Shown piece after piece: positions 24 to 19,713 of a stretch of 27,462 nt of DNA (its first letter is position 1; each line of letters starts with the position of its first letter). Both the position numbers and the translations under genes were made by a program. The stretch comes from Zoopage sp. CT-All. Taxonomy: Eukaryota; Zoopagomycota; Zoopagomycetes; Zoopagales; Zoopagaceae. The stretch lies in NCBI GenBank assembly GCA_004114245.1, contig QZWS01000091.1:1-27462 (forward strand), read 5' to 3'. The notes below the pieces were generated by a model. The model saw only the letters and a program-made list of their open reading frames with translations. It ran no database searches and was not told the origin of the DNA.

Positions 24-947
24 ATGCTGATCTTCTATCTAATCGCGTTCATCGTCAATGTCGTCATTTTTGGCGGCTTCATATTCCGCTACCGCCAGAA
101 TCCCTCCGTCAAGGCCTACCTGCACCTGGGCATTGCTGTCCTCGGCCAGGCCATCTCCTCCGGCCTGCTCGCCTTCCTCGGCGACCTCCTCTTTTCCTCC
201 TACATCGTCTCGCTCGTCATCGTCTACGTCTCGGCCATCATTGGCTCTCTCTCGGGCCTCCTCATGATCATGGTCATCCTCGGCCTCATCCGCACCTGGA
301 TCACGAGCATGCGCACCGGCGTGGCCATCCCCCCTGCCAAGCTGGACACGTCCGACAAGGTGCTCCGCTACCTCCGCATCGCATACCCCGTGCTCACCGC
401 CGCCTCCATCCTCTTCTACGTGCTTCTGATCGTATCGCTGGGCTTTGCCGGCTTGCTCGTCCTCATCGTTGGGCTCGCCTTCACCATCACCATGGTCGCG
501 CAGTGCGCCATCCTCGTCTGGATGTATCTCGACCTCCACCGCCAGGGCTCGGGAAACCCCTCGGAGCTGCAGAAGCGCAACCAGCTGCTCAAGCTCGCCG
601 GACTCACTTTCTTTGGCGCCTGGCCCGCGATGCTCGCCGGTGTGGGCACCGGTGTGGGCGCCGGCATTGGCGGCGCCCTCTGCTGGTGGGTGTGGTACGG
701 CATCGCGCTGTGGCCGGGAGCGTTGCTTGCGCTTGATGAGCCGGTGCAGCCCGCCGTCGGTGGAGACAAGTACCCTGCTGCGGCGGCCTATGACCAGCAG
801 CAGTATGCGTATGGCAATGGCCAACCACAGACACAGCAGCCGCCGCAGCAGTTTGCTCAGCCCCCGCAGGCCGCATACCAGCCGCAGTACCAGCAGCAGT
901 ATGGTGGCCAGCCTCAGCAGCAATACGGCGGGTATCCGCAGCAGTAG
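24..947 (+). CDS. Seven-helix membrane protein 7TM-A, Gln/Pro/Tyr-rich tail
   Basis: Intronless, 307 residues, starting at the ATG in an ACC-ATG context. Seven hydrophobic segments are visible at about residues 2-22, 31-53, 57-89, 121-140, 143-169, 189-207 and 212-237. Basic residues cluster in the first loop (RYRQNPSVK), the third loop (WITSMRTG to LRYLR) and the fifth loop (SELQKRNQLLK), so the positive-inside rule predicts N-terminus outside and C-terminus in the cytosol, as in GPCRs. Residues 238-307 form a low-complexity tail rich in Q, P, Y and G. The protein is clearly paralogous to the product at 18970-19713 (shared LLAFLGD, WITSM, SELQKRNQLL, and a CWW-W-G-ALWP end) and more distantly to those at 16202-17083 and 14537-15785. 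No characterised family is recognised. A receptor or membrane-organising role is inference only. Confidence 0.9.
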   Translation: MLIFYLIAFIVNVVIFGGFIFRYRQNPSVKAYLHLGIAVLGQAISSGLLAFLGDLLFSSYIVSLVIVYVSAIIGSLSGLLMIMVILGLIRTWITSMRTGVAIPPAKLDTSDKVLRYLRIAYPVLTAASILFYVLLIVSLGFAGLLVLIVGLAFTITMVAQCAILVWMYLDLHRQGSGNPSELQKRNQLLKLAGLTFFGAWPAMLAGVGTGVGAGIGGALCWWVWYGIALWPGALLALDEPVQPAVGGDKYPAAAAYDQQQYAYGNGQPQTQQPPQQFAQPPQAAYQPQYQQQYGGQPQQQYGGYPQQ

Positions 948-970
948 TGCCGAGCCATGTGTGCCGATTC

Positions 971-987
971 CATATACTATACTATTT
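971..987 (+). promoter_or_regulatory. TATA-like element before RPT3
   Basis: An AT-rich run (catatactatactattt) lies about 120-130 bases before the RPT3 ATG, inside the 156-base gap after the 7TM-A stop. It is the only TATA-like sequence in this otherwise GC-rich gap. Assignment is by position only. Confidence 0.4.
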
Positions 988-1103
988 GTTCCATAACGGT
1001 TCTTGCTATGGGTGGGAGTGGGGACAAAGACGGCGTGAAGTGTTGGCCACCCACAGTGATGACGGCAGCACACAATCCAGCTCGCCAAATCACAGCATCT
1101 GGC

Positions 1104-2366
1104 ATGGAGGACATTGCCATCCTCGCGCCCGCCCAGGTACGCCGCATCTTCTCCTCTGCACGCTGCTGCCATCATCTTGCGCGTCAATAGTCATCCTCGG
1201 CCAGCACTGCCGCCGCCTCGGGCGATCTATACACGCGCCTCAAGCGCATGCAACGCCACCTCGAATTCCTCGCGCTGCAGGAAACCTACGTCAAGGACGA
1301 CCTCTCCAACCTCAAGCGCGAGTTGCTGCGCGCCCAAGAAGAGGTGAAGCGCATCCGATCCGTGCCACTGGTGATTGGCCAGTTCCTCGAAGCCGTTGAT
1401 GCCGGACACGCCATCATTGGAAGCACGGCCGGGTCAAACACGCTGGTGCGGGTGCTCTCCACCCTGGATCGCGAGCTGCTCAAGCCCGGGACATCGGTGG
1501 CGCTGCACCGGCACTCGAGCGCGCTCGTGGATCTGCTCCCGCCCGAAGCCGATTCCACCATTTCCATGCTCGGGAGCACCGAGAAGCCCGACGTCACGTA
1601 TTCGGATGTCGGCGGGCTGGATATGCAGAAGCAGGAGATCCGCGAGGCGGTGGAGCTGCCGCTAACACACTTTGATCTCTATCGCCAAATCGGCATTGAT
1701 CCGCCGCGCGGCGTGCTGCTCTACGGGCCGCCCGGCGGCGGCAAAACTATGCTCGTCAAGGCCGTTGCGCACCACACCACCGCCTCGTTTATCCGAATCA
1801 ACGGCTCCGAGTTTGTGCAAAAGTATCTCGGCGAGGGCCCGCGCATGGTGCGCGATGTCTTCCGCATGGCGCGCGAGAACACCCCGTGCATCGTCTTCAT
1901 CGACGAAATCGACGCGATCGCAACCAAGCGGTTTGATGCCCAGACCGGCGCGGATCGCGAGGTGCAGCGCATTCTCCTCGAGCTGCTCAACCAGATGGAC
2001 GGGTTTGACCAGACGCAGAACATCAAGGTGATTATGGCCACGAACCGCGCGGACACGCTGGACCCGGCATTACTGCGTCCCGGTCGTCTCGATCGCAAGA
2101 TTGAGTTCCCCACGCCGGATCGGCGACAGAAGCGCCTCATCTTTGCCACCATCACGGCCAAGATGAATTTATCCGAGGAGGTGGACCTGGAGGACTTTGT
2201 CAGCCGGCCGGACAGGCTGACGGGCGCCGAGATTGCGGCCATCTGCCAGGAGGCCGGCATGCAAGCGGTGCGAAAGAACCGGTATGTGATTCTCAGCAAG
2301 GACATTGAAAAGGGCTACCAGAGCCACTCGAAGAAGACCGACTCGGACTTTGAGTTTTACAAGTAG
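1104..2366 (+). CDS. RPT3: 26S proteasome regulatory particle ATPase subunit Rpt3 (PSMC4)
   Basis: Two exons, 1104-1136 and 1191-2366, joined by a 54-nt intron (GTACGC...AATAG, phase 0), give 402 residues, close to the usual 410-430. Rpt3 is one of six AAA+ ATPases of the 19S base; it unfolds ubiquitinated substrates and opens the 20S gate. Visible features are an N-terminal coiled coil ([15 protein letters not shown] onward), the OB-domain region, Walker A GPPGGGKT, Walker [11 protein letters not shown], the subfamily block [17 protein letters not shown], sensor segment [20 protein letters not shown] with arginine finger, and the C-terminal HbYX motif (FYK) that docks into the 20S ring. The Walker A variable position is Gly. 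The first exon supplies only 11 residues ([11 protein letters not shown]). The short gap to the next gene (113 bases) is typical of this window. Confidence 0.97.
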
Positions 2367-2437
2367 TGCAGCGTGTTGTTGTCGCCAGACATGCAGCTAT
2401 TCCTGGGCTAAATCCCCGATTAGGTGCCTGGCACCAA

Positions 2438-2450
2438 GATATATTAACCG
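2438..2450 (+). promoter_or_regulatory. TATA-like box upstream of the 2480 gene
   Basis: AGATATATTAACC lies about 35-40 bases before the ATG at 2480 and just 72 bases after the RPT3 stop. It is closer to the start codon than the other TATA-like boxes in this window, so the true start could be a later ATG or the 5' UTR is very short. Confidence 0.45.
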
Positions 2451-2479
2451 CCCGCCACTTCGCCGCCAGCACCCCCCAG

Positions 2480-4169
2480 ATGTCGTCCAAGGTCGAGGCC
2501 GAGTTCAAGGACATCTTTAATTGTAGGATAATCGATTCGTCCGTCGAGCGCGCAAAGCCGGCAGTGCATGTCGGCGTCCTGCAGGCACTCGACACCATCC
2601 GCGACGAGCTGGTATCTGCTCCATGTGCCTGCCATTCCGTCCTGTAATGCCGGGTTAGATGCAGCTGCTGCCTGAAAATGCCCGCAGCATTGTGACATCG
2701 CTGATCGACGGCGACGACGACAATGACGACGGTGAGAAGGACAAGGAATCGACAGTCGCCGATGCGACATCCCGCAGCGTCGTCCTCGCCAAGAAGCAGC
2801 ATCATGGCCATCTCCAAATATTCGATCCCATCCGGCGTAAAATTGAGGAAATTCTGGCCAGTCTCACCGCTGCTGTGAAGCAGGTCGTCGAGTCTGCGAC
2901 GAGCAATCTAGGCGATATGGTCACCGATGCGATGATTGTCGCGGTGAAGGCTGCGTTGAGGCGCTGGGACGAGCATCATCAGAAGCGCATTGCGCGTGGG
3001 TCGGACACCAGTAGCAGCCCGAGCAGCAGCGACGAGGAGCCGGAAAAGGCGGCGCAGGACATTGAGGTTGTTGCAGTGGTCGCTCCCGAGTCAACATCGA
3101 GGGAGATTCCAGCCACGCCGTCTGCCGCCGATGCGCCCAGCGAGTCTGGATTGTGGCATAAGACCCTGGAATCGACGTCGAAAATGGTGGGACAAACAGC
3201 GTCAGGGCTTCTCGCTGCGCTATCCGAAGGCGAGCCCACGGGTGATGACCTCGATCGTGTTTTGGGTCTGCCCTCGGCTCAAGATGAGAGTCATCCGAGC
3301 ACTGCAACCGCTGTGGAATCCGAGCTTGGTATGTGCCTGCCCCATGCTGTCCTTCTGACTTGGTCGCAGTTGTCCAAGCAGTGCTGGTTCAAGGCGTCGT
3401 CCCCAGCGATGCGCTCCCATTCGTAGTCAAGAAGCACGGGATATATTGCCGTTTTCGATCGTATGTATGTTGTCGACGTGCGCTGACCGAGGATGGCACC
3501 AATCCCCGAGAACTAGTGCTGGTGATCACCCCCCGATTAGTCCCGGACGGCAACGACGCAGATGTGGAGGACAATATCATTCCGAAGCCTGTCCGCAAGT
3601 CAGCATCGCAGCGTTCTGGCGGGGACGACCTGGACGATAAGATGGACAAGCTCCGTGATAGAATCGGGGCCAAAGCCGACAGTGCCGCAGAGAAACTGGA
3701 TATATTTAAGGGCGATGCTGACAAACAGCTGGTCAAGTTCATCGATCGGCTGGATGTTGTCGAGTGGGCCTCGCGTCAAGCCTGTCGCATTATCAAGCGA
3801 ACAATGGTATTCGTCACGCTCGAGGTGCAGCGCTTCATGGTTGTCGTATCAGCAGGCCTCGCGAACTTGATCTCAAGCAATCTGATCAAGCTTATGAATC
3901 GTGTCATGGATGAGGCGCGAAAGGCCGGTGGAATGTTTGGTCGGCTGGTCGGAACCCTTCAGGAATCGCGCAAGATTGGCGTGTTCAAGATGATAGCGAC
4001 GAGCTTTGAGGAGAAGGCGTCGCAGCTGGTTCATCTTGCGATGACTAGGCTGCAGGTAATGGTGCTGGCGCTGACGGAGGACAAGCTGAGGCTGACTTTT
4101 GACAAGCTGCCAGGAGTGAAGGTGACCTCGGAGCAGTTCAAGACAATAGTTGGTGATGTATCAGTGTAG
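2480..4169 (+). CDS. Unrecognised helical protein, about 533 aa
   Basis: Three exons are inferred: 2480-2611, 2659-3328 and 3370-4169. The introns are 47 nt (GTATCT...GTTAG, phase 0) and 41 nt (GTATGT...GCAG, phase 1); the joined length is exactly 534 codons. I do not recognise the product. It begins MSSKVEAEFKDIFN. An acidic patch follows (DGDDDNDDGEKDKE), then a helical segment (RRKIEEILASLTAAVKQVVE), a Ser/Glu-rich disordered linker, and a C-terminal part of long amphipathic helices (KMDKLRDRIGAKADSAAEKL; FEEKASQLVHLAMTRL). One hydrophobic stretch (MVFVTLEVQRFMVVVSAGLANLI is in this part, roughly 3800-3870) could touch a membrane. No signal peptide or catalytic motif is visible. It converges on the minus-strand gene ending at 4346 with 176 bases between. 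Confidence 0.75.
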
Positions 4170-4345
4170 GGCAAGTGCTGTAGTAAAGCTAATATGTATT
4201 GAGATTGGTCAAAAACATGGCTGCGGCCGACTCTAGCAGTGTCCAGCACTGCGAATCAAGGCCCTGCAGTCATGCAGCTGGTCCAGTCACACACGGCGTT
4301 GTTTTTGGTGGTTTACTTGCTCATGGAAGTTGTAGGGTGGCGTAG

Positions 4346-6415
4346 CTAATTGTGCTCCGAATCGGTGATGGCGATAGTAGAGCGGCGCAGGAGTGATGAC
4401 GACGCCGACGTATCGGTGGCGGGTGGCGGCATCGGTGCCACGTCAGTGGTGTTGCCAGAAGCCAGTGTTTCCTGCTGGGGGTCTGCACTACCCGCACCAC
4501 TTGTCTGGGAATCCATTGGTACTGACGAATTTACGCTCGCACCAGTAAAATCAGGCTGTGCTGCATCAGTAGGCCGATCCTGCTGAGGGGCATCCATGGG
4601 CAGCATATCAGCCGGCTGGTCGTTTGGCTGTGGCTGGCCACTGATTGATTGCGGCATAAGCGGGCTCATCCACTTGCCGCTGCGCGAGTTCCAGCGGCTA
4701 GCGCTAGGGTACTCGGCAGGACACCACTCACCATCATCGGGCATCTTCATCCAGTCACGAGACATGCGACGGTCGGTGTTGCTGCTGCGGCCCATGGCAT
4801 ATTTTGGTTGCGACGGGGACCACTTTCCCTGGCGCTCTTGCCCCCAAGACTTGGGCTGGCTCGGCTTGGGGGTCCAGTTGACCTTGTCGTCAGGCGACGA
4901 ATAGGTATCATCGCCTGCCATCTGTCCAGCACTAGGACGCGGTGCGCCATCCCCTTCGGACCAGTATGCTCCCTGCCCAGGCGAGGTGGACCAAGCAGTG
5001 ACGGCAGCGGACATGGGATTGGACTGACGGCGGAGGAGGCGACTGTTGCGGAAAAGGCGATTGTTACCGAAGGGAGAGCTATTACCGAAGGGAGAGCTAT
5101 TGCCAAAGGGAGAGTTGTTGCCGAAGGGAGCGTTATTGCCGAAGGGAGAGTTATTGCCGGGAAACGGCAGAGGAAGGCGACTCTGGCCGCTGATATTGGC
5201 CTGACCGCCGTTCTTGGCCTGACCACCGTTCTGGGCTTGACCAAGTCCTTGCCCACGGAGTTGTCGCTGGCCGTTGATCTTGGCCTGACCGCCGTTCTTG
5301 GCCTGGCCGAGTCCTTGCCCACGGAGTTGTCGCTGGCCGTTAATCTTGACCTGACCGCCGTTCTTGGCCTGACCGCCGCTCTGGGCCTGGCCAAGTCCTT
5401 GCCCACGGAGTTGCCGCTGGCCACTGTTCCTGCCCTGACCAGGTCCTTGCCCGCGGAACTGCCGCTTGCCGCGGGCCTGGCGAAACACAGCGATGCCATC
5501 ATCGTTCGAATCATCCATGGTCAGCATTGTGTCCGCGGCGACTGTCGTCCCGTTTGCAGCCGCTTCGTTTACAGCATCCGCGTTGATCTTTGCGAGTGCT
5601 GCGGCGGCCCTCTGGTTCTGCTTCAAGGCGGCGCGGTTGGTGAAGTTCTGGGTGCCATCGGCAAGCACCTTGCTCATGTCTGCGGCCAGTGCGCGGTTGA
5701 GCTGTGCCGTGGCCTGGGCATCGCCGCCCTGGGCCTGCATGGCGGCCAAGTCGGCGTCGGGGTTGTTGGAGACGAGCACGTCGAAGCACGAGGCGTACGT
5801 CTCGTTGAAGGACCACTTCCAGCGAAAGGTGAACATGCCCGTCTGCTGCGGCATCTGCACACTCCCGCCGCACAGCCCAAACTTCTCGTCGCCACTGGGA
5901 TCGCACGCATTGTCGCCAAACTTGGTGCGAGTCACCACGCGGCGGTCGAATTCCGCGGCGGATGGATCGGTGGCGAGATTGGGCCCGAGCATCTGCACCT
6001 CGACGTCGGTGTTGGGCAGCTTCTTGACGAGGCCCTTGAAGACTTCCACGGTGCCGTTGAGGTGACGGTTCGCCTGCCACTGGATATTGATCATGGCGCC
6101 GGGCGCGGCCACCGTCATGGGGAACTGGGCGGAGTAGGCGGCGGAGATGGGGGCGGCGCGGGGCTGGGTGAAGGGGTCGCAGGCGACGTTGGAGCGGCCG
6201 GGGCGGAAGGCGAAGAGGATGTCGTTGGCGGGGTCAAGGGCGGCGATGTTGCGCGGGAAGCCGCGGCAGGTGGATGTGTCTGGGGTGGTGGGGGAAACGG
6301 CGTCGGTGCAGACGAGGAAGGAGTGGGGCGAGACGAGGGCGGGGGCGAAGGAGAGCTGGATAGTGAGGAGAACGGCGGTCCAGCGTGCACCCACGGAGAA
6401 GACAGCAAAGGTCAT
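4346..6415 (-). CDS. Secreted protein with LPMO-like N-terminal domain and repeat-rich tail
   Basis: One open frame of 689 residues from the ATG at 6415. A start 53 codons upstream is possible but would bury the signal sequence. Residues 1-26 or 1-30 are a signal peptide. The following domain begins at HSFLVCTD (His31) and has paired cysteines, an internal His at WQANRHLNG (His118), and a closing strand FTFRWKWSFNETYASCFDV (195-213). This pattern resembles fungal copper-dependent polysaccharide monooxygenase-like secreted domains, where an N-terminal His and a second His bind copper. This is inference: Pro30 before His31 is an unusual cleavage site, so the His may not be N-terminal. The C-terminal half is low complexity: Gly/Gln repeats, GNNSPF hexapeptides, then a Trp-dotted Pro/Ser region. 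A wall-associated or polysaccharide-binding role fits the layout. Confidence 0.82.
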   Translation of the reverse strand: MTFAVFSVGARWTAVLLTIQLSFAPALVSPHSFLVCTDAVSPTTPDTSTCRGFPRNIAALDPANDILFAFRPGRSNVACDPFTQPRAAPISAAYSAQFPMTVAAPGAMINIQWQANRHLNGTVEVFKGLVKKLPNTDVEVQMLGPNLATDPSAAEFDRRVVTRTKFGDNACDPSGDEKFGLCGGSVQMPQQTGMFTFRWKWSFNETYASCFDVLVSNNPDADLAAMQAQGGDAQATAQLNRALAADMSKVLADGTQNFTNRAALKQNQRAAAALAKINADAVNEAAANGTTVAADTMLTMDDSNDDGIAVFRQARGKRQFRGQGPGQGRNSGQRQLRGQGLGQAQSGGQAKNGGQVKINGQRQLRGQGLGQAKNGGQAKINGQRQLRGQGLGQAQNGGQAKNGGQANISGQSRLPLPFPGNNSPFGNNAPFGNNSPFGNSSPFGNSSPFGNNRLFRNSRLLRRQSNPMSAAVTAWSTSPGQGAYWSEGDGAPRPSAGQMAGDDTYSSPDDKVNWTPKPSQPKSWGQERQGKWSPSQPKYAMGRSSNTDRRMSRDWMKMPDDGEWCPAEYPSASRWNSRSGKWMSPLMPQSISGQPQPNDQPADMLPMDAPQQDRPTDAAQPDFTGASVNSSVPMDSQTSGAGSADPQQETLASGNTTDVAPMPPPATDTSASSSLLRRSTIAITDSEHN
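5045..5165 (-). repeat. 18-nt tandem repeats coding GNNSPF-type hexapeptides
   Basis: The coding strand repeats a unit for Gly-Asn-(Asn/Ser)-(Ser/Ala)-Pro-Phe at least five times in a row, ending in a degenerate GNNRLF copy. On the plus strand it shows as recurrent blocks such as ccgaagggagagctattg. It lies inside the secreted protein gene and keeps the reading frame. Confidence 0.85.
5190..5470 (-). repeat. 66/84-nt tandem repeats coding Gly/Gln-rich units
   Basis: Three near-identical copies of a unit beginning NGQRQLRGQGLGQA are followed by one or two (Q/K)NGGQAK modules, giving 28-, 22- and 28-residue periods. A fourth, degenerate copy (RGQGPGQGRNSGQRQL) lies at the N-terminal side. High DNA identity between copies points to recent unequal exchange. 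Copy number may vary between strains. Confidence 0.85.
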
Positions 6416-6815
6416 GGTGCGAAGGATGATGGGCGAAGGAGGTGCGTGAGGGCGATGCGGGGAAGGAGGGCGCGGGGTCGCGAGGAGGAGGGGCGGATGG
6501 AAGGAGGAGGGAAGAAAAGAGCCGCCCCAATGCGGAACGAGCCGAGATCCATTGGCCCGCCGAGCCAAATGCATCTCAATGCCACGGGGTCCGCGTAGCA
6601 GCGCTCAGTCGATGCCCTGCCGCGCCGTGGGCATCGATTCCCAGGATTCCTCGGCTGCAAGCTGCCGCCCCATCAGAAGGGCTTTCTCTATTCTGGCGTG
6701 CAGGCACTCTTATATCCGTCGTCCAATGCTGATGCCGAGGCGTCGACGCGTCGACGCGCCAACGCGGCAACGTTGCCTGTGTCCATGGGCGGCGGAGAAC
6801 TCTCCCACACGACGC
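6416..6815. promoter_or_regulatory. Divergent promoter region, 400 bp
   Basis: This gap separates the secreted protein gene (minus) from the mitochondrial kinase gene (plus). It holds a TATA-like TTATAT at 6710-6715, about 100 bases before the kinase ATG. An 18-nt perfect palindrome at 6740-6757 contains ACGCGT. No TATA-like element is visible on the minus-strand side, which is a polypyrimidine-type leader read toward 6415. No RNA gene seen. Confidence 0.55.
6740..6757. promoter_or_regulatory. 18-nt perfect palindrome with ACGCGT core
   Basis: gcgtcgacgcgtcgacgc reads the same on both strands. It contains ACGCGT, the core of the fungal MCB element bound by MBF/APSES factors, plus two GTCGAC half-blocks. 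It sits between the TATA-like box and the ATG of the kinase gene. Function is inferred from sequence only. Confidence 0.4.
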
Positions 6816-8045
6816 ATGCTTCGCTTCCGCGGCATTGCGGGCTCCGCCGACGCCGTCCGCCACGTCTGTCCACTCGCTCCCCGCCCCCGCCCCGCTCACC
6901 TTTGCTCGTAGTACGCTGTGCGCGAAATCCAGCCAGTGACGCTGCGGACGCTGTTGCTCACGCCAACCCCGAACTCGCCCGCCGCGCTTCTCGCCTCGGC
7001 CCGCTATGCGCATTCCGAGCTCCCGACCCGCCTCGCCCGCCGCATCCAGGCCTTCCGCCACCTCCCGTTCATCGTCGGCACAAACCCATACATAAAGAGC
7101 GTGCACGACGACTACATCGAGTCGTTCAACGCCATCATTGCGTTCAGCGAGATTGCATCCGTGGAGCAGGATGAACGCTTCACCCGGGTGCTGGTCGAGC
7201 TGACCGAGCGACACAAGGATACCGTGCCCAAGCTTGCCCGCGGATTCCTCGAGTCGCGCGGATATGTGGCCCCCGGGATGGTGGCGCGGTTCCTAGACGA
7301 GCTGATTCACTCGCGCATCGGGGTGCGCTTGATTGCCGAGCACCACGTCGCGCTGCACGGCGTCTCTAGGGCCTGCAGCGACGGTGATTTCGCCGCCTCG
7401 AATTACATTGGGCTGGTGCACACGCGTCTGCGCCCAGCAGCACTGCTCCGCGATGTGGTCGAGTACGTCCGCGACATCTGCGAGGTTAATTATGGCCGCG
7501 CACCGCGCGCCATCTTCACCGGCCAGGTCGACACCATCCTTGCATATGTGCCCGTGCATTTGGAGTACATCGCCTGCGAGCTGCTGAAGAACGCATACCG
7601 CGCCACCGTTGAGCATGCCATGCGACAGAACTCTGTGGCTGACGACGAACTGCCGCCGGTGGAGATCACCGTGAGCAAGGGCTCGGAGCAGGTCGGGATC
7701 CGGATTCGGGACCGCGGCGGCGGCATTCGTCCCGAGGACGTCGACTCGGTCTTCGACTACTCCTACACCACTGTCAGCGACGACCCGTCCAGTCCGTCCT
7801 CCTCGCTCAGCAACGACTTGGCCGCGGGCGGTGCTGGCGGCGGCATATTCTCGACGCAAACACGCATGGCTGTGCAGGCAGGCAGCGGCGGGCCCATGGC
7901 CGGACTCGGCTACGGCCTGCCCATGGCCCAGATCTACGCGCAGTATTTCGGCGGCCGACTGGAGCTGGTCAGCATCGACGGCCTAGGCTGCGACGTGTTT
8001 CTGCGCGTGCCAAACATTAACCAGGAAACGGATAAGGAGATTTAG
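6816..8045 (+). CDS. Mitochondrial 2-oxoacid dehydrogenase kinase (PDK/BCKDK family)
   Basis: Two exons, 6816-6863 and 6912-8045, with a 48-nt intron (GTCTGT...GTAG, phase 0), give 393 residues. The family phosphorylates and switches off the pyruvate or branched-chain 2-oxoacid dehydrogenase complex in the mitochondrial matrix. The Arg-containing N-terminus MLRFRGIAGSADAVRH fits a targeting peptide. Family marks are PVTLRTLL, the block LPFIVGTNPYIKSVHDDY, the regulatory-domain segment LIAEHHVALHG, N box ELLKNAYRATVE, G1 box RDRGGGIRPEDVD, and G2 box AGLGYGLPMAQIYAQYFGG. The end GCDVFLRVPNI is closer in style to branched-chain kinases, but I would not decide between the two from sequence alone. 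An in-frame ATG at 6726 exists; it lies only about 10 bases after the TATA-like box, so 6816 is preferred. A Gly/Ser-rich ATP-lid insertion lies near 7785-7850. Confidence 0.92.
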
Positions 8046-9236: not shown

Positions 9237-9245
9237 AACGGGGTA

Positions 9246-11284
9246 ATGGCGCTCTGCGAATGGGCCGTCGATGGTGCATCTGCTCGGGCGGTGAAGCGCA
9301 CCGGCGGTCCTTTCTTTGTTTTGCCGCGTAAGAAGACCTGGGCTTTGACCGCCAGGCTCCCGGGGCACTGGGAATCGAGCGCCGAGGAGTCGTCGGACGA
9401 CACGCCGGTTTCGTCGCCAAGGCTCACAGCCTTGTCCGTCGTGTCGTCAACATCGCCCGCTGCTACTGCGTCTCTTGCGACTGAGAGCGCCCGGCCCAAC
9501 GATGCCCCACCAAGCGTTGCTCCGCCGGTCATCTCTTCTGCTGTCGCGACGGGTGACGCGATGCCCTTGAATCGTGGAAGATCGACGAAGCGATCGTTCC
9601 TTACGGCCGGCAACAGCCTTCCGACGTTTCCTCCGTGGACCCCAATCCGTCGCGGTGTGTCGACGCTGGCCGAGCCAAGCTTGCCGAGGAAGAAATGCCG
9701 CGACGCGTCGACGATGACGGAGCCAAGCCTGCCGCGTAAGGAATTCCGCGATGCGTCGACGATGACGGAAGCAGGCTCGCCGAAAAAGACATATCGCGAT
9801 GCGTCGACGGCGACGGCAGCTGAGCCAAAGGAGCTCGACCGCAACACGGCAAAGACGACCGAGCCCAAGTTGCCGAGCACCAAGCACTGCGATGTGAAAC
9901 CGACGGTCGAGCCAAGCTCCAAGAGCAAGACCCGTTGCTCGGTCCAACATGGTATGTTGCTTATGATGGCGAGTATGCAATTCATTTTGTATAGATGCGC
10001 GGAAATCGCGTTCAGGGGATTCCGAGAACGTCGCCAGCCAGCCGCCCTCGTCCCAAGCGTCCGGTGGCGATCGCTTGAAGTCGTCGAATCCTCCGACTGG
10101 TGCGCCGCAAGCCGCGCTTGGGACGCGCGTGACCCCGCTTGCCGTTGAATCGCCCTCGTTCGTCGCGCCGCCAAGTGTGCAGCATGCGCTTATTGGAAGC
10201 GGCATGATCTTTTGCTCGGCGGTCGCCATGCCTGCCGTTACCAATGCCAGCGCCTACAGGTTGCGAGAACAAGCGACGACGGCATCGATCGGCGATGCGA
10301 TTATCCGGCCGCGCACATGTACATCGCCGGACACGACGAGACATTGCTCTCCTGCGCTCCTGACGACGATCGACGATTTTTCCGCCATGTTTGCGTTGCT
10401 GAGCACCAACGATCGGCCGCCTCGCAATACGGTAGACGTCGTGATGCTCGATGAGAGTAGCGATTTGGTAGCGATGGATCTCGAATTCTCGCCCGCAAGT
10501 CCGGACTGCGGAGCATCGGCTGGTATCGAGGATGTCCCGATGGCTCCCAGGTTCATCGGTCACGACGCACAGGTTTCGTTCGAGGAAGTCGCCAGGGCGC
10601 TTCATATGGATATCTCAAATCTGACGGCGTCCGATATCGAGCTGCTCAATCTCGTGCTGGCTGATGTTCCCACGGTCGATTCCGCCGATTTCGCCGTGCC
10701 TGACGCTCCCATGGACGATTCCACCGCGTTAGATCCCGCCGTGGCCGATTTCGCCATGGTCGACTGCATGCCAAGGGCTCACGGCAACCTTGGAGCGTGG
10801 CAAGAGCCGTCTCCGATGGAGATCGACGAGCAGACCTCGCATCTATTCATCCCAAGCGAGGATCCCATCGTCTCGGCATCTTCTCCAGCGCCGTCAGGAG
10901 AAGTTCAAGGTGTCATCTTTGGCGCGAAAGGACGCGTAGCTCCCGGTCAGTTCATCATGCGCTCCATTTTCTGCTGACATGTCTGTAGATGCAGCCAGGG
11001 CTGTTCCGCTTCGCAATCGTCCAGTGCGAGTACCCCGGGGACAACCGCGCCTCCCATCTGCCGCCCAAGCGCCAGTGGTGAGCGATGCGCCGTATGTTGG
11101 CGATGGCTCGGCGTCGACTCCCGACGACGACGACTTGACTGCGGCGGAAATCTTGCGCATATCGGCAGGGATCGGGTACGACGAGGACGCCGAGATTGAC
11201 GTCAACAATCGACGCGATCTCCGAGCGGAGGCGGCAAGCGATCTTGCATTGGCCCGAAGGATGCTGGCCAAACCGCGGAAATGA
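9246..11284 (+). CDS. Ser/Pro/Asp-rich protein of unknown function, about 650 aa
   Basis: Three exons 9246-9951, 9995-10945 and 10989-11284 are joined by two 43-nt phase-1 introns (GTATGT...ATAG and GTCAGT...CTGACATGTCTGTAG). Together they make exactly 651 codons, and the clean joins are the main evidence for coding. The product is predicted to be disordered. It has a Ser/Thr/Pro-rich start, five or six degenerate 16-residue repeats (model STMTEPSLPRKEFRDA), and an acidic middle with short helices (FEEVARALHMDISNL; SDIELLNLVLADV) and Asp-Ala-rich runs. It ends in a charged helix (RRDLRAEAASDLALARRM). It is in the same frame as the upstream signal-peptide protein, and sense-like sequence continues in frame past its own TGA (see 11285-11532). 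Function unknown; a cytosolic tail of a membrane protein is one option. Confidence 0.6.
9660..9851 (+). repeat. 48-nt tandem repeats (16-residue units)
   Basis: Three clear units start at 9660, 9708 and 9756, each opening tcgacg and ending with a codon pair for Asp-Ala (gatgcg or gacgcg). A fourth, degraded unit starts at 9804. The encoded units read STLAEPSLPRKKCRDA, STMTEPSLPRKEFRDA and STMTEAGSPKKTYRDA. Basic and Ser/Thr residues recur at fixed places, so they could be phosphorylation or binding modules. Confidence 0.85.
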
Positions 11285-11532: not shown

Positions 11533-11548
11533 ATATGTACTGCATTGT

Positions 11549-11559: not shown

Positions 11560-11683
11560 GCATAGCATTTTGTGATTCAAACCTTCTCGTATGATGTCTC
11601 CCTTGAAAAATCAGAAATTGGATAGCATTGATATTTTGTTGGTGCAACAGCGGAAAAGAACGATCTCGGGGAATTGGCTGCTC

Positions 11684-12392
11684 ATGTCAACACAGCTTGC
11701 GAAACGCTCCCTTCGACGCCAGCTCCGCGCCGTTCTCCGTGTGCTTTCGCCACAAACCATCCGCGCGGACACAGAGGCCGTCGTGAAGCTACTATTTGAC
11801 CTCCGCGAGTATCAAAATGCGCAGCGAGTAAGTGTTTACGCGAGCATGAGCGGTGAAATTGCTACGGACGCCATCATCGCCGACATCTTCCTTACTGGTG
11901 TGTTTGTTCCTCACAGCTGCGCCTTCCTATGCTCCAATTGCTTGCAGGCAAAGAGTGCTATATCCCGCGATGGGACGGAAACGCCATGGCAATGACCCGT
12001 ATTCCTTCCTATGCCGCGTTCCTCGAGCTTCCTGTCAATGCTTGGGGCATTCGGGAGCCGACGACGATCGATCCCGCTGACACTGTTCCTGATCTCGTCA
12101 TTATGCCTGGCCTGGGGTTTGATGCGTCACGGAACCGAATCGGACATGGCAAGGGCTACTATGATCGGTACCTCGCCAGTATCTGCAGTCAAGCTGTGAC
12201 CAGCGGTCTTCCAAGGCCTGTGTCGGGTGAGTCTCTTAATCGCGCTATACAGGACTGAAAGCAATGCTGATTTGCAATTGATTGATAGTCGCGCTAGCAC
12301 TGCATGCCCAGATGATAGAGAGCGTTCCTACGGACAGCAACGACATGAGACCAGATATGCTTATTACCCCTGATAGGATTCTGCACAGCTGA
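11684..12392 (+). CDS. FAU1: 5-formyltetrahydrofolate cyclo-ligase
   Basis: Three exons 11684-11897, 11948-12226 and 12289-12392, with introns of 50 nt (GTGTGT...TGCAG) and 62 nt (GTGAGT...GATAG), both phase 1, give 198 residues, the usual size. The enzyme uses ATP to convert 5-formyl-THF (folinate) to 5,10-methenyl-THF. Family marks are an N-terminal basic segment (AKRSLRRQLRAVLRVL), the substrate-loop region GKECYIPRWDG recreated exactly across the first splice junction, and the signature PGLGFDASRNRIGHGKGYYD followed by RYL. The C-terminal strand MLITPDRIL matches the conserved end. An in-frame ATG at 11591 would add 31 residues (MMSPLKNQKLD...), possibly a leader. I prefer 11684 because homologous sequence starts there. 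Confidence 0.93.
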
Positions 12393-12458
12393 ATACAATT
12401 CGTGCTTACACAGTGTAAATGCATATCTAAACTAAATCATGCTGTCCGCTCACGTGCG

Positions 12459-14107
12459 TTATTGCCAGCGTCGCGGTGCTCCGCTGGCCCGTCCGCCTCC
12501 ATCCGTACTCCCACTGCTGCCGCGCTCTCTCAGCTTGGCATTCAGCCGATCCATGTTCCTCCTAGCCTCCTCGTTCGCCACACTTACGCTGCGATTCCTC
12601 GTTCCACCGCCCGAACTACCCGGCCGCGATGGACCCGTGCTCAACGAGCGAATGCTGCTAAAGGCGGATCCCAACAAGGATGTCGATGGCGGCGAGGAAG
12701 GCGACGATGGCGGCATTGTGGGCGCATTGACAGGTGTACGAGAGCGCGACATTCTCCCGCCATCTCTTGGCGACGATGCACTTGTTGTATTTGGACGCAG
12801 TGACATTGGAGGGGCCGTAGATCTGCCTTCGTTCTTGTGGGGGGATGTCGCAATCGGCGTGGGCGAGGAGCCGCGCTCGGCGATGACTGTAAGTCCTCCG
12901 GTTACTATCTGATCACGCGGACTTGTCGCCATCGCTATAACCTCCAATCGTGTCATTGACGACGTCTCGAGTCTCATTCTAGTGGTCGGACGGGCGGATT
13001 CTGCGCGGCGATGATTCCCAACTAGCTGCTTCGCTTCTTCCCTCACCGGCGTAGTCACCACATTGGTTGTGCGCTGGTTCCACACAACCGAATCGAATGT
13101 CAACGCGGCCGCAGTGCGTGTCACAGAGGATTCTTGCAATGACATTCTCATTTTTTGCTGCGATTGCAGATGCACCATAGGGGTGGCCGAGGAGGTTGCC
13201 GGTCGCTGCTGCTGAGCGGGTGCCCGAGCCACTGCCGCAGCACGAGCCGATCGGCGGTATATCTTTGCAAGCGACGGCATCCTGACCTCCATATCTGCTC
13301 TCGACAGAGACAACTCATCGGGCACGAGATCTTGCAACCGGTGAAGCATGGACATGATATCCTTGATCGCCGTGCGTGTACGGTCCACCTGTTCGGTCAA
13401 ATTGGTGGCATCCCGTGAAAGCTTATCCCGAACCACGCTCATTCGCCCGAGCGTTCCGCTTCCCGAAGACAGAGCGAGTCTGGCGGACAAATCCTCGACA
13501 TGTCGCCGGCTCCCAGCAATGCGTTTCTAGTGATCATCAATGGCGCCTATTCCACCCTTAGTGGTACCTGTTTCAGGGCAAGCTCGTCGTTAAACTTGCG
13601 CCTGCGGTCTCTCACTACGCTCCATACCTCGATCATCGCATGCGCCAGGGGTGTTTCTGGCACAGCATCGACGCGGGTTTGCGACGTGCGGAAGGGCTGC
13701 AGGAGACCCTCGAGCGATATGAATGACTGGCCGGGTGCACGGCGGCGGCCCAGCGGCGAGAACTAGCAGCAGACGTATAATTCACGCAGGGATTGACAGG
13801 ATAAAGCTGACAGTTGGGAGATCATGAAGGGCGGCAAGGAGTGGGTCTTGCTTCACAGCCAGAGATTTTCGCGTGACGACACTCACTACTCCCAGATGCT
13901 AAAGTACGCACGAACATTATGTCACTCTACAAGCAAAAGAGGAGCACAACTCACTGTCTCGGAGTTGCTCCGGGTGGTTGCAGCCGGCCTGGCCGCTCTG
14001 GCCCTCCCGGATCCGGCCTCCAAATCACTGTCTGATGACGACAACCCTTCGTCGGGAACAGCAACATCCTCGCGAGACACTGTTGTGACTGCGTCGAGAG
14101 CAGTCAT
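12459..14107 (-). CDS. BORCS5: BORCS5-like subunit (BORC lysosome-positioning complex), long C-terminal tail
   Basis: Four exons on the minus strand: 14107-13955, 13898-13812, 13762-13568 and 13526-12459. The introns of 56, 49 and 41 nt are all phase 0, giving 500 residues. BORC acts at the lysosome/vacuole surface and couples it to Arl8 and kinesin. Recognition rests on the join KQDPLLAALHDLPTFSPL across exons 2-3, which matches the family's DP(D/L)...(E/D)(I/L)PTF.PL block. The following helical region ends in RTRTAIKDIMSMLHRLQDLV-PDE, like the family's coiled-coil end (D..VP.LDRLN.MLPE). Beyond this a roughly 250-residue Ser/Pro/Arg-rich tail is present, absent from the about 200-residue animal protein. 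The start is uncertain: ATG 14107 has a TATA-like box 80 bases upstream, while the frame is open to ATG 14446 (CACC-ATGG). No N-terminal Met-Gly myristoylation site is evident at either. Confidence 0.72.
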
Positions 14108-14184
14108 GGATGAGGAGCGGCGGTGATCAACGCCAAGGTAAACGGCATGCAGCTGTTGTCGTTGATGTTCGCCCAACACGGGTG

Positions 14185-14190
14185 TTATAT
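14185..14190 (-). promoter_or_regulatory. TATA-like box for the BORCS5-like gene
   Basis: On the minus strand, ggATATAAcacc lies about 80 bases before the ATG at 14107, the usual spacing in this window. It supports the shorter start over the in-frame ATG at 14446, which would place this box inside the coding region. Confidence 0.45.
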
Positions 14191-14536
14191 CCCTCCTCCG
14201 ACGCCGCTGTTTTACTGTCACTGGCGAGCCACTTGGTGCGTCTGCAGGGGTGGTGGTCGCGGTGGTGGCCGTGGTAGTGACCGTGTTGCTGAAGGGGAGG
14301 GGGGGACGTTTGCGCGGCCGCGGCGAGTGCGGATCATGGGGTCGGTAGTGGCTGGTTTGCTTCCTGACCAGCGTCGACTGCTCCTGGCCCTGCAGGGTGA
14401 TGTGAGTGTGAGCGATGAGACTGGCATGAGACACGCGACAGACCATGGTGCGGAGGGATGCCGGTGGAGGGAAGGTGGTGCGGGGTTTTGGCTGACGTGG
14501 CACTTTGGCCAAAAACTGTACTGCATAATGAAACGT
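14191..14536. other. Intergenic or 5' extension region, 346 bp
   Basis: It lies between the 3' end of 7TM-B and the BORCS5-like gene, both on the minus strand. It is open on the minus strand from ATG 14446 (MVCRVSHASLIAHT...) through a Thr-rich low-complexity run into the BORCS5-like frame, so it may be N-terminal coding sequence or leader. No other feature seen. Confidence 0.5.
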
Positions 14537-15785
14537 CTATACAACATACTCGCCGAGTTCGTTGATGTAGCCGACGCTGGGGCTTCGTTGCGTGCGCATC
14601 GCACTCGGCGTCTCCTGCGGCGCTGCTGGTTGTGTTGCGACGAGATGTAGGGCAAACTCTGGAATGGGCATGCGTCGGCCGGGAGCGATGCCTTCGGGGT
14701 AGAGCGGTGCCGGTGGAGGGTATATGTGGCCACGGGATGCTGCTGAGTGATCGGGCTCTGGCATGGACATCAGCGGCGGTGTGGTATATCTTGCACCGTT
14801 GGCGTCGCTGTTGAACACTGGGCCGGAATCCAGTATGCCCGAGGCGGTCATGGGCGGCGGTGCCGGCTGTGGCCAGGTCCCAGAGTGCTCTGGCACGGGA
14901 TGCAATGATGGAAATGGTGGCTGCTGGGGTTCTTGCACTGTCGGCGGCTGGCTCGTGTCTACTGGTCCAGCCGGGGGTGGTCGCGTTAGAGGAGGGTATG
15001 TCGGCGGCGCTCCGAACCCGCTGTATGCTGCTGGGTAGAGTGCCGACAGCATGGCAATGAAGCAGTCGAGAACGAGATACGCGATTAGCGCTGCGAAACG
15101 CGGGGATATCACCGTGACGAGGTACACGGCTGTGACTATGAACAACATGACACTCATTCTTGCCGATTGCTGCGAAAGGCCATCAGCAGTGGGTATTGCA
15201 GTGGGAAGGGGAGCCTACGTTGCGCTTGAGAGTCGAGTGGCGAGTATCCGACGATCGGGTTAGGAACCCGGCTGCTACGGCAGCGACGGCGCACGACACC
15301 ACCGTGAGCACTCCGGTGGCGTAGATACCGCCGGCATACACATCTAGCAGCCCGGCCGACGGGTCCACGGAGTATGTCACAATAAACAGCACGGGTCGGG
15401 CAACGCCATTGACGATGATGGAGACAAAGAGCAGCAGAAACAGCACCCGCATGGACCGGTATCGCTCGGGAGAGCGCAGGTGGCGCTTCATGGCCCACAC
15501 CCAGCGCAGCATCAGCCATATCAGCGCCACGGGAAATGCCAAATGCAACAGGTAGAGAACGGCGAGAATGACGGCGAAGTAGGGCTGCGGCTGGGTGAAG
15601 AGGGCGGTGAGGTAGACGGGGATGAGGAGGGCCGAGACGACAATCAGCAGGGCGTAGGAAGCGTCACGGTGGATGTAGAAGCGCACGGCGTGTATGATGC
15701 AGAAGATGGCGACGCAGCAGACCGAGACGAGAAGAAGGAGGCCCTCGGAGGAGCCGAGGACGGCGAGAAGGGCAGCCGGATCCAT
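14537..15785 (-). CDS. Seven-helix membrane protein 7TM-B, Pro-rich tail
   Basis: Two exons, 15785-15219 and 15169-14537, with a 49-nt intron (GTAGGC...CGCAG, phase 0), give 399 residues. Helices are visible at about residues 15-37, 44-63, 70-93, 113-137 and 152-175, then two after the splice (SVMLFIVTAVYLVTVIS; AALIAYLVLDCFIAML). The splice restores the sixth and seventh helices, which supports it. Basic loops (RFYIHRD; WVWAMKRHLRSPERYRSMR; TLKRNQSAR) again put the N-terminus outside and the tail inside. The WVWAM motif (95-99) matches WITSM/WVKSM in the three paralogues. The cytosolic tail is about 160 residues, rich in Pro, with PPTYPPL and PPPAPLYP stretches, and ends SVGYINELGEYVV. It is transcribed away from 7TM-C across a shared promoter. 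Most divergent of the four; family unknown. Confidence 0.87.
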
Positions 15786-16201
15786 GCGCTGCAGATGGAT
15801 GCCAAGGTCAGCTGACCGCCAAGAGGAGATAAGGGTGGGTGGCATTAGGATGCTATTTCCTGCATGTGACTTGAGGCATCTGAAGTCCTTATGGGATTGC
15901 GGTCTACTGGGGCTTGAGAAATACACGCCTAGCTGCATTCCATCTGCAGAATGGCCGATGACGTGGAAGCAGAGCATTTGGACCTGAGCACCTTCAAGCC
16001 AACGGCCTGAAGCGGCCTTAGCCACGCCCCACAGCCTGCTGATTCCCGGCTTCGTCTCCGTCCGCTTCTGAACTTGGGCGCACGACAGGCATATATTAAT
16101 CGCGACTTTGATCTAGCGCACTCCTGTAGCCTGCTTGGCCTCCAGATCCCCCGCACTCCCCGCTCCTCCCGCTCCTCCCCCCTACACGCTACACATCAGC
16201 C
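15786..16201. promoter_or_regulatory. Shared divergent promoter of 7TM-B and 7TM-C
   Basis: This 416-bp gap separates two head-to-head seven-helix genes. A TATA-like ATATATTAAT at 16091-16100 is about 105 bases before the 7TM-C ATG and is followed by a C-rich leader. A 12-nt palindrome GGTCAGCTGACC at 15806-15817 lies just upstream of the 7TM-B ATG. No TATA-like box is evident for 7TM-B. Confidence 0.6.
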
Positions 16202-17083
16202 ATGTCCGTGTTTGTTACCGGTGTCGTCGACGCCGTCTTTGTCGGCCTGCTGCTCGTCGGCCACACCGTGCAGTTTGCCCGGTCAAAGGTCCGCGCTCAC
16301 ATCGCCTTCGCCAGCGCCGCATTCTTCCTGCTGGTCGCCGCCGCGACCTCCGCAGCGCTCTTCACTTCCACGCTGCTCGAGGCGCTACGAGCTCTCTTCG
16401 CGGTCTTTATCCTGTGGACCATTGCCTCGGCGATCATCTCCTTTACGCTGGTGGGCATGGTCCGTGCCTGGGTCAAGTCCATGGACAATGTGCCCGCCGG
16501 ACACACCCGCGGCCCAATCAAGGCGGCGCTTATGGGCATCAAGGTTGCCCTCGGCGTCATCCACCTGCTCCTCATCCTCCTCGTCATCCTGTATTTTTTC
16601 GTCGTCTCTAATATGTCCATTTCCCTGTTCGTCATCCCCGGCGTGCTTATGCTCATCGTCGGCCTCATCCTCGTCGGCATCACCGTGTCCCAGTGCTTTG
16701 GGGCCCACTATGACGGCTCTCCAGACATGGCCCGCAAGCGCCGTGAAATCATCGTGCTCGCCGTCCTCTCCTTCTTCTTCTTCTGGCCCCTGTTCCTTGG
16801 CACCATACCCGCCGTCAGCTACATAGTCACTCCCGTCTTCTTCTGGATCTTCCTTGGCATCGCGCTCTACACCCTCCCAAAGCTCCGCGAGCCGCCCACC
16901 GTCACCGCCGGCGGAGAGCCGATCCAGCCAGTAGTTGGTGGGGGCATGGCCACGGCTGCTAGCGGCGGCGCAGTTCCCGTCATCATGAACGACCCCAACG
17001 CGACGTCCGGCCTGGTCCAGGTCGGGTTCGACCAGCACGGGAACGCGCTGTTTGCCCAGGTGCCCGTCATGCAGCAGGTGTAG
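16202..17083 (+). CDS. Seven-helix membrane protein 7TM-C
   Basis: Intronless, 293 residues, starting at CAGCC-ATG. Hydrophobic segments are seen at about residues 3-24, 32-55, 60-88, 112-135, 138-165, 182-203 and 206-226. The loops RSKVRAH, RAWVKSMDNVPAGHTRG and DMARKRRE are basic, giving N-outside, C-inside topology. The motif WVKSM (90-94) and the seventh-helix end GIALYTLPK match 7TM-A and D (WITSM; GIALWPGA / GVALWPKA). DMARKRREIIVL occupies the place of SELQKRNQLLK. The tail (227-293) is shorter, Gly/Val/Pro-rich, without Gln repeats. It is divergent from 7TM-B and about 130 bases upstream of the GCNA-like gene. Function unknown. Confidence 0.9.
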   Translation: MSVFVTGVVDAVFVGLLLVGHTVQFARSKVRAHIAFASAAFFLLVAAATSAALFTSTLLEALRALFAVFILWTIASAIISFTLVGMVRAWVKSMDNVPAGHTRGPIKAALMGIKVALGVIHLLLILLVILYFFVVSNMSISLFVIPGVLMLIVGLILVGITVSQCFGAHYDGSPDMARKRREIIVLAVLSFFFFWPLFLGTIPAVSYIVTPVFFWIFLGIALYTLPKLREPPTVTAGGEPIQPVVGGGMATAASGGAVPVIMNDPNATSGLVQVGFDQHGNALFAQVPVMQQV

Positions 17084-17140
17084 GCCTGCTGCTACACATC
17101 GACTGTGGCTTGATGTAATTTCTCCTGCGTCGTGGGTAAA

Positions 17141-17148
17141 TATATAAG
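17141..17148 (+). promoter_or_regulatory. TATA box upstream of the GCNA-like gene
   Basis: TATATAAG lies 58 bases after the 7TM-C stop and about 65 bases before the ATG at 17211, supporting that ATG as the start of the following gene. Confidence 0.6.
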
Positions 17149-17210
17149 ACTCTCAGGCGCTCTGCATTGCTGCCTCTGAGTTGCCGACTGACTGTCGACA
17201 GGCCAATCAG

Positions 17211-18874
17211 ATGTCCCTTACGAACACCGCCTCCGCCACGCGTTTTGTGGACGGTAGCGGGCTTATTCTCGCCGCTGTATTTCTCAACACACCATCTAGA
17301 CAAGTCGGATGCACGGCAGCGCCGTTTTGACGGATATCCCGGCGCGGTTCCTCGCGACGAGAGTACGCCATCGGCCTTCCCCGTTTACCACTGATCGTCT
17401 TGCATTGTCAGCACGGTTTCCATACATGAAGCATGCCGGCATTTCTGACTCATTTAAGACACCCAGCAAAGACGCCAGTTATGATCACGAGGAGCCCCTT
17501 GGGCAAGAAGTCTCCCGCGAGGCGTTATCCCGCTTCAGGCAGACAGCCTGCAACCCGGCCGTCCTCCTCTGGCTTGCTATTCAAGCGCTCGCCAGTGAAC
17601 AGTATAGACTCGAGCAGCGACGACAGTGTTGTTAATTCAGCTCCTCCTGCATCGGCAAGCAGTCTTGCAGGGATCCATCACTTGCTTACATTTCAAGCAG
17701 CGGCTGGTGACGACCAACGCCAAGCTCAGCCGAAACACCAAAATGATCGTGTTAGACAGCGACGACGACGACTACTACTTTCGGAAGTCGAACAGACTCC
17801 CTGTAGCGGACGACAACGTTGGTGTTTGTGCTGACGAGGATGCAGCAGTTGGCGTGCTCACCTCAATGCTAGCCAGCACTGTAATCGACCTTGACAGCGA
17901 TGTCGATATATTTGTATGCAAACGATTGCTTCGAGTTCTGCTGCGCTGACACTATGGTGCCTAGCCTACCTTTGAAGAGTCCATGCTTTCCAGTCCCGGC
18001 GTCCTCTTACAGTAGGCCTCCATGGCGTGCCTTTCTTGCGCTGACCTTGCCGTGCAGTGAAGGTCGTCATGCACCGACTCTCGATAATAAGACACCATGC
18101 GCTAAAACTCGAGCGCCCGTCGCAGCAGAGCACATACCAAAATCACTCAGCATTGCCTCGGTCGCCTCAGTCACCTCGGTCGCCTCGGTCGCCACGCCAT
18201 CCATGACCAAGGTCGCTTTTGCCCGCAAGCGCGTCCAACTCTCCCGCCAATACTACGACGAGTTCAACGAGACAGTATTTAATGGTCGGCTGCCGTGGGA
18301 CATGGAGATAGTCTGGAGCAAGTCGCTGCTCAAAACTGCAGGCCTCTTCCGCAGTCAGCGCTCGCTAGCAGGAGTGTCGCACTCGATCCACCTTGCAGTC
18401 AAAGTCTGTGACAGCGTTGAGCGATTAAGGACCACCCTCGTCCACGAGATGTGCCATGCTGCAGTGCGCATCATCGATGGAGCGAGCGATGCCCGAGCCC
18501 ATGGCCGCGAGTTCAACACATGGGGACGGAGGGTGATGGCCAGGTATGTGGGACTGGAGGTGACACGGTGCCATGGATATGAGATCGCATTCAAGTTCCA
18601 GTATGTGTGCATGAATGCAGCATGCGGGGTAGTGTATGGGCGGCACAGCAAGTCGATTGACGTGGCACGGCAGTGCTGTGGACGGTGTCGAGGACGACTG
18701 ACGCTGAATGGGGGCGGCGAGGCGCGTAAAATGAGCGGGTATGCCGAGTTTACACGCGAGCACTTTGCGCGTGTGCGTGGGGAGATGGCGCCGGGCAGCT
18801 CGCACGGTGACATTATGCGACAAGTTGCCGTCGAGTGGCGGGCGACGCAGGGCGCGGAGAGCATTGTTCCATAA
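17211..18874 (+). CDS. GCNA: GCNA-like SprT-family metalloprotease with SUMO-interacting motifs
   Basis: The secure part is 17743-17913, 17965-18011 and 18058-18874, with introns of 51 nt (GTATGC...GCTGAC...CCTAG) and 46 nt (GTAGGC...GCTGACC...GCAG). The SprT domain contains the zinc protease motif HEMCH (18443-18457), the downstream AHGREF, and a Cys-zinc ribbon (YVCMNAACG; RQCCGRCRG). The blocks NGRLPWDMEIVWSK, GRHSKSIDVAR and LAVKVCDS match the GCNA branch, which removes DNA-protein crosslinks guided by SUMO. Two strong SIM-type segments precede it (MIVLDSDDDDYY and TVIDLDSDVDIF). The 5' end is tentative: ATG 17211 then introns 17254-17299 and 17363-17411 give MSLTNTASATRFVD-D-KSDARQRRF..., but the join from 17412-17601 to 17743 is unresolved. 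An alternative frame with SIDSSSDDSVV at 17598-17630 is also attractive. Confidence 0.82.
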
Positions 18875-18881
18875 ATAAAGC
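18871..18881 (+). promoter_or_regulatory. TATA-like / polyA-signal-like overlap
   Basis: CATAAATAAAG spans the TAA stop of the GCNA-like gene. ATAAATAAA is TATA-like and about 95 bases before the 7TM-D ATG, while AATAAA within it is a polyadenylation-signal hexamer. One short sequence may thus serve stop codon, 3' processing and the next promoter. Confidence 0.5.
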
Positions 18882-18969
18882 GCGCAGTCGACGCTCTGCC
18901 AAAACTAGCCAACCAACCACCACCCCTACTCCCGCGCCATCTCGCGTCCCGCCCTCCGCGCCGCCCACG

Positions 18970-19713
18970 ATGCTGATCTTCCCCATCGTCGACATGGCCG
19001 TTAGCGCGGCCATTTCCGTGTGCTTTTTCATCCGGTTTCGTCAGTACGTGGAGCGACGCTATCTGTACCTCTGCTTTGCAACTGCCGCCGCCGCCGTCTC
19101 CTCTGCCCTCCTCGCTTTCCTCGGCGACGGCTTTGAAACCCTCAACGCCGTCTTCATCTACCTTTCCCTGATCGTGTACATGATGGTGACTCTGGTGTAT
19201 ATCATGATGGAAGTCGGGATGCTGCTGGTGTGGATCACAAGCATGCGCAATGCGCCCCGCCCACGGGCGTACAAGCTGTTGTGGGTGGGCAAGCTCATGC
19301 GCGTGCTGCGGTGGGCGTATCCAGTGTTTACGTTCCTTTTAGTCGTGTTTTTCGTGCTGCTGATCGTCACGCTGACCTGGGCCACCGTGCTCACGGTCGT
19401 CGTTGGCCTGATGTACACCATTGTGCTTTTCGTGCAGACCTTGCTCATCCTCTGGCTCTATCTCGATGTCCGGGTCGTGGGAAATGCGTCCGAGCTGCAG
19501 AAGCGAAACCAGCTGCTGCGCATCCTCGCGCTGTCGTTGCTATCCTCATTCCCGCCACTCTTGAGCGGAGTGGGCGCGGGAATCGGCAGCTCGATCTGCT
19601 GGTGGCTGTGGTTCGGGGTGGCATTATGGCCGAAAGCACTGGTGGGGTTCGATATGCCCCCGGAGACAGCAACGCCCGGGATGATGGAAGGCGGCAGCCC
19701 GGTATTCAAGTAG
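18970..19713 (+). CDS. Seven-helix membrane protein 7TM-D, short tail
   Basis: Intronless, 247 residues. An upstream in-frame extension overlaps the GCNA stop and the TATA-like box, so ATG 18970 is chosen; it also aligns with the MLIF start of 7TM-A. Helices are at about residues 2-22, 31-52, 58-88, 115-135, 138-165, 184-201 and 206-226. It is the closest paralogue of 7TM-A: LLAFLGD (48-52 region), VWITSMRN (87-94), WAYPVF, NASELQKRNQLLR (172-184), GVGAGIG, ICWWLWFGVALWPKAL. The tail is only about 20 residues with no Gln-rich repeats, so the tail was gained or lost between A and D. Loop charges again predict N-outside, C-inside. Function unknown. Confidence 0.9.
   Translation: MLIFPIVDMAVSAAISVCFFIRFRQYVERRYLYLCFATAAAAVSSALLAFLGDGFETLNAVFIYLSLIVYMMVTLVYIMMEVGMLLVWITSMRNAPRPRAYKLLWVGKLMRVLRWAYPVFTFLLVVFFVLLIVTLTWATVLTVVVGLMYTIVLFVQTLLILWLYLDVRVVGNASELQKRNQLLRILALSLLSSFPPLLSGVGAGIGSSICWWLWFGVALWPKALVGFDMPPETATPGMMEGGSPVFK

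Follow-up and report, generated by a model that had tools for sequence, protein, structure and literature searches.

Four genes (A-D) in the window, which is an entire contig of 27,462 bases (C339) from an 8.62-Mb, 419-contig assembly, and a fifth (E) elsewhere in the genome appear to encode an undescribed fungal family of seven-helix proteins with a GPCR- or rhodopsin-like bundle. These proteins may well be orphan receptors or sensors, a reading to which we give slightly less than even weight; among the three functional readings weighed below receptor function is the likeliest, plausible but unproven. If the members are true receptors, the family would add to fungal sensing a class that current models miss, and its conserved tail motif would provide a direct handle on a partner. 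If they are not, it would still be a conserved, probably expressed and unannotated family of fungal membrane proteins. According to PMC12842992, profile searches left 141,666 fungal seven-helix proteins, grouped into 1969 clusters, unidentified as GPCRs, and beside these one more unclassified set is useful rather than astonishing.

Table 1. Predicted family genes and neighbouring genes (window positions unless another contig is named)
Feature	Position	Strand	Remarks
Gene A, A-type	24..947	+	307 aa; 7TM core and Q/P/Y/G/A-rich cytosolic tail; single open frame
A-type tail motif PQAAYQPQYQQQYGGQP	864..914	+	residues 281-297 of A
Gene B, spliced	14537..15785	-	two exons and 49-nt intron; 399 aa without stop once joined
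Gene B exon 1	15219..15785	-	TM1-TM5
Gene B intron	15170..15218	-	49 nt, GT...AG; inferred from sequence alone
Gene B exon 2	14537..15169	-	TM6-TM7 and long Pro-rich tail
Gene C	16202..17083	+	293 aa; divergent member; single open frame
Gene D, D-type	18970..19713	+	247 aa; short-tailed member; single open frame
Gene E, fifth member	contig C411:617-1474	-	285 aa frame, seven hydrophobic segments
Proteasome ATPase RPT3	1248-2366	+	ordinary neighbour
BCKDH/PDH-type kinase	6918-8045	+	ordinary neighbour
5-FTHF cyclo-ligase	11591-11995	+	ordinary neighbour
SprT-like protease	17891-18874	+	ordinary neighbour
Poly(A) polymerase/CCA head-domain protein	20026-22134	+	ordinary neighbour
CBS-domain protein	27026-27460	-	ordinary neighbour

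Kinship of the window genes

The frames of A-D are open where they had been predicted, B requiring one intron, and its exon junction falls between N and Q of a KRNQ motif common to A and D. Third codon positions have a GC fraction of 0.84 in A, 0.83 in C, 0.80 in D and 0.71 in B; on the same contig the value is 0.81 for both RPT3 and the BCKDH/PDH-type kinase and 0.64 for the SprT-like gene. Transcription of B and C diverges, with 416 bases (15786-16201) separating their start codons. In this common region a TATATTAAT element lies roughly 100 bases ahead of C, and a resembling TTAATATATG overlaps the ATG at 20026.

Judged by sequence, A-D belong to one family, in which the A-D and A-C similarities are plain (42%, E 1.9e-52, and 33%, E 1.1e-8, respectively, in a whole-genome search with A) and B is remote yet stands above shuffles and control. 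The motif W-x-x-(S/A)-M, which the original prediction had placed at the same point of all four proteins, indeed occupies a single alignment column, and the sequences bear out the sharing of SELQKRNQLL and a Trp-rich helix 7 by A and D. Against a profile of 12 members made without B and C, C scored 57.9 bits and B 9.5 bits. Among shuffles that kept the hydrophobic pattern, none of 2000 reached the real profile score for D, and none of 2000 for C; for B the count was 0/2000 with C in the profile and 1/2000 without it. Fifty-two columns are conserved in at least 11 of the 12 core proteins; 22 of these are retained in C and 18 in B, counts that lean upward, the alignment having included both.

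Conceivably, the likeness of B reflects general seven-helix hydrophobicity, in which case the window would hold three family members and not four. Its low score against the core profile, the single shuffle that reached that score with the stricter profile and an HHalign value of 75% (E 2.4e-5, 11-member profile) all lean this way, as do the genome searches: B was not among the matches to A, C, D or E, and its own exon 1, read on into the intron, matched only B itself. We nevertheless regard this as quite improbable, given that no shuffle reached the score of B once C was in the profile and that KRNQ (aligned to KRNQ by HHalign), W-x-x-A-M and ALYPAAYSGF of B all sit at family positions, whereas an unrelated seven-helix control, the genome's own cAMP-receptor-like GPCR, obtained -0.1 bits and an HHalign value of 0.1%.

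Topology, bundle shape and known families

Members of the family are predicted to span the membrane seven times with the N-terminus outside and the C-terminus inside, as had been proposed for A-D. A hydropathy scan found seven segments in A, B and D and eight in C, the eighth being a weak one (1.43) in the tail that has no helix in the AlphaFold2 model. Models were built for A (seven long helices and a 4-residue turn at 52-55; mean pLDDT 74.2, pTM 0.69) and C (seven helices; mean pLDDT 73.7, pTM 0.70), and the helix count of B, D and E comes from hydropathy. Lysine and arginine in predicted inside versus outside loops number 13/0 in A, 12/1 in B, 14/1 in C and 15/0 in D, and 11-17 versus 0 in all ten environmental relatives described below, a positive-inside bias in 14 of 14 proteins checked. 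Hardly any of the protein is extracellular, helix 1 beginning at residue 2 in model A and the outside loops being short.

Both models are sequential seven-helix bundles whose nearest shapes are microbial rhodopsins and GPCRs, and in Foldseek neither had a match at E <= 0.001. Yeast Ste2 is among the structural neighbours of model C and absent from the 50 VIA-align matches listed for model A. The 'GPCR topology' originally claimed thus holds for the fit of the models, but microbial rhodopsins and TMEM87A, a non-receptor seven-helix protein, fit them about as well as GPCRs do, and shape therefore does not establish receptor function.

It is in this light that a non-receptor rhodopsin-like bundle must be weighed. 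In yeast, the lysine-less opsin-related proteins Hsp30, Mrh1 and Yro2 stabilise or modulate some other membrane protein, or the membrane itself, during stress, and the family might do likewise, with neither ligand nor G protein; bundle shape and short loops are alike in the two sets. Rhodopsins, by title, make up 36 of the 50 VIA-align matches listed for A and 43 of the 50 listed for C, and the short outside parts are themselves rhodopsin-like. Likewise, the family resembles opsin-related proteins, described in PMC7667738 and PMC6467936 as opsin-like without the retinal lysine, in lacking a lysine midway along helix 7. On the other hand, none of the 15 family proteins matched the microbial rhodopsin family PF01036 by sequence, and on balance we consider this reading rather unlikely. 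A genome search for PF01036 also returned nothing, with its controls equally silent, so that it is no proof of absence.

The lysine itself can be followed through the family. No lysine precedes LW(P/S) of helix 7 in any of the 12 core proteins; in D and two relatives, P0009 and P0010, one stands directly after LWP; C has a sole helix 7 lysine, K227, at the end of predicted helix 203-229; B has none, and E has none before WPGAL. A retinal protein is ruled out, the middle of helix 7 being without a Schiff-base lysine.

Comparison with sequence libraries agrees with the original remark that no named receptor family is recognisable, and the profile and Pfam check reached no known family, receptor or non-receptor. 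Among GPCR Pfam families there was no match at E <= 1 for A, B (as two exon pieces), C, D, E, P0009 and P0010, nor at E <= 0.1 for an 11-member set containing P0001-P0008; NCBIfam gave no family for the 11 members searched, a set outside which B, E, P0009 and P0010 fall. A profile of 13 members, made without B and E, found nothing among PDB sequences at E <= 10, Ste2 chains included, and A alone drew only four ATP-synthase c-subunit sequences (E 4.8-7.6). Weak Pfam matches, those of A-E, P0009 and P0010 lying below the displayed cut-offs, fell in one member each (DUF973 in C, 0.12; Flp_Fap in D, 0.093; CoV_NSP4_N in B exon 1, 0.95; Asp4 in 1 of 11 members, 0.079; CCD in P0009, 0.15; SLATT_1 in P0010, 0.88), save H_PPase, found in D (0.014) and P0010 (0.28).

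Individual seven-helix systems differ from the family in distinct ways. Ste2, the fungal class D pheromone receptor, has no sequence match from the family profile, and the start of helix 1 at residue 2 is unlike it. TMEM87A, a GOLD-domain seven-helix protein, differs in that the family is without a domain before helix 1 and without a sequence match to a PDB chain. The Dicty_CAR family PF05462 is likewise seven-helix and has one representative in the genome, the control used above (L015; 672 aa, contig C19, 247-2265, minus strand), which matches at 2.3e-13, whereas none of the 15 family proteins does. The lysine-less opsin-related proteins also part from the family at PF01036. A further analogy is with the DUF6534 proteins, an unclassified fungal seven-helix set which PMC12842992 proposes as a new GPCR class, with a consensus set entirely from Agaricomycotina; no DUF6534 match was listed for the 15 proteins. 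The family, left unclassified by the Pfam, NCBIfam and PDB libraries, may be one of many such fungal sets. Four short family strings were absent from the literature searched, which is weak evidence in that papers seldom print such strings.

A fifth copy, environmental relatives and the age of the cluster

Mapping of family copies along the assembly yielded a fifth, divergent one. A genome search with D gave a full-length match on contig C411 at E 0.0975, insufficient alone; this protein, E, bears WLRSL following helix 3 and WPGALSGFDK following helix 7. It scores 35 bits against a 12-member profile, a value that none of 2000 shuffles attained, and aligns by HHalign at 97%; in the reverse search it recovered D only at E 1.25. 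The genome thus holds at least five family members, not confined to the cluster, and further divergent or intron-split copies may have been missed by the searches. With E and P0010 included the shared motif relaxes, to W-x-x-S-L and W-x-x-S-V respectively. E adjoins a protein-kinase-like gene (C411, 1868-2942, minus strand) with pieces GAVFKCLHEPTG, FMEFCEGGSLD and IHRDVKPSN, which presumably resembles a MAP kinase kinase.

Searches of a large protein set, each of which scored about 8000 candidates, recovered at least 10 environmental relatives (P0001-P0010, a lower bound), none with a listed Pfam domain. For nine of the ten, the longest contig measures 900-1153 bases and exceeds the coding length by 101-382 bases, as would be expected of mRNA contigs; P0010 lies on a contig of 5,068 bases. 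Prokaryote genomes gave 65 pattern stretches and viral contigs 84, of which not one was confirmed, and phage records gave no match.

In an unrooted tree of 14 proteins, weak at 6 of its 11 inner branches, A joins P0001-P0004 (99/100) and D joins P0009-P0010 (100/100), P0005-P0008 falling in neither group; the branches of B and C are too long for these two to be placed. Because A and D each group with their own environmental proteins, their duplication would predate the divergence of the species from which those groups come, as far as we infer from an unrooted tree, and the gene cluster appears to be an old arrangement. Recent local duplication is ruled out by the two separate, supported groups. 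The original picture of three clustered copies, one distant copy and local duplication is therefore incomplete, given a fifth member on another contig and the age of the A and D paralogues.

Conserved surfaces and possible function

Across the 12 core proteins mean identity is best in helix 7 (0.81), followed by outside loop 2 (0.70), helix 4 (0.67), inside loops 2 and 3 (0.65 each), inside loop 1 (0.51) and outside loop 1 (0.40); in the tail, which most members lack, it is 0.17. Helix 7 reads CWW-W(Y/F)--LWP-A in most core proteins. The TM6 proline P201 is present in all 12 and in C, not in B, and FF--WP in 9 of 15 members; class A GPCRs carry a CWxP element, which FF--WP/P201 resembles, a likeness and not a test. 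In model A, the charged columns shared by 11 or more of the 12 core proteins (R22, D54, R97, K106, D170, K184 and R185) are confined to helix ends and loops. That placement speaks against the possibility that the family is an undescribed seven-helix kind of channel, scramblase or transporter of lipids or small molecules, as does the nature of the better structural fits, which are single sequential bundles, and we hold such a role to be rather unlikely.

The A-type proteins add a feature of their own. A 17-residue tail stretch (consensus PQAxYQPQxQQxYGGQP), chosen by eye from the same sequences on which it was scored, shows 82-100% identity across all 10 pairings of the five A-type proteins, against 60-75% for their core and 20-34% for the tail before the motif. 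D is without it, and a genome search with the low-complexity tail of A returned A alone at E <= 1.

Receptor function, ligand type, membrane and partner are matters on which only a conditional account is offered. As receptors, the members would sit in the plasma membrane or an endomembrane, N-terminus outside and C-terminus inside. With an extracellular part near-absent, the stimulus would be bound inside the bundle, near the Trp-rich helix 7, and might be a small hydrophobic molecule, a lipid, a sterol or a state of the membrane. In the cytosol loops 2 and 3, both conserved (W-x-x-S-M-R and KRNQL), could together with helix 7 pass the change on to the G-alpha/RGS system of the cell or to another adaptor, and the 17-residue motif may dock an A-type-specific partner. 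More doubtful, if possible, is that the family constitutes an unrecognised fungal receptor class with at least two old subtypes, one signalling through its own tail motif. Such a class would lie outside the 17 catalogued in PMC12842992.

The genome contains part of a G-alpha gene, whose N-terminal pieces (L007/L009) lie at the end of contig C319, where the gene is cut. One of five matches in the G-alpha search exceeded the family cut-off; other GTPases may account for three weaker matches located elsewhere. Among the RGS matches, six of seven exceeded theirs. Together with the sole Dicty_CAR-type GPCR, these matches mean that parts of G-protein signalling exist in this genome, and two chitin synthase matches support a fungus as the source of the genome.

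Two further frames of the window deserve mention. One (9246-10148, plus strand) runs over 48-nt direct repeats (9651-9935), has no Pfam match and may be coding or not. The other, of 742 aa (4346-6574, minus strand), has a sub-threshold match to DUF7492 (0.031) as its sole Pfam match and contains GQG/NGGQ and NNSPFGN repeats, with DNA repeat families at 5043-5440; its N-terminal stretch, hydrophobic by eye, suggests secretion.
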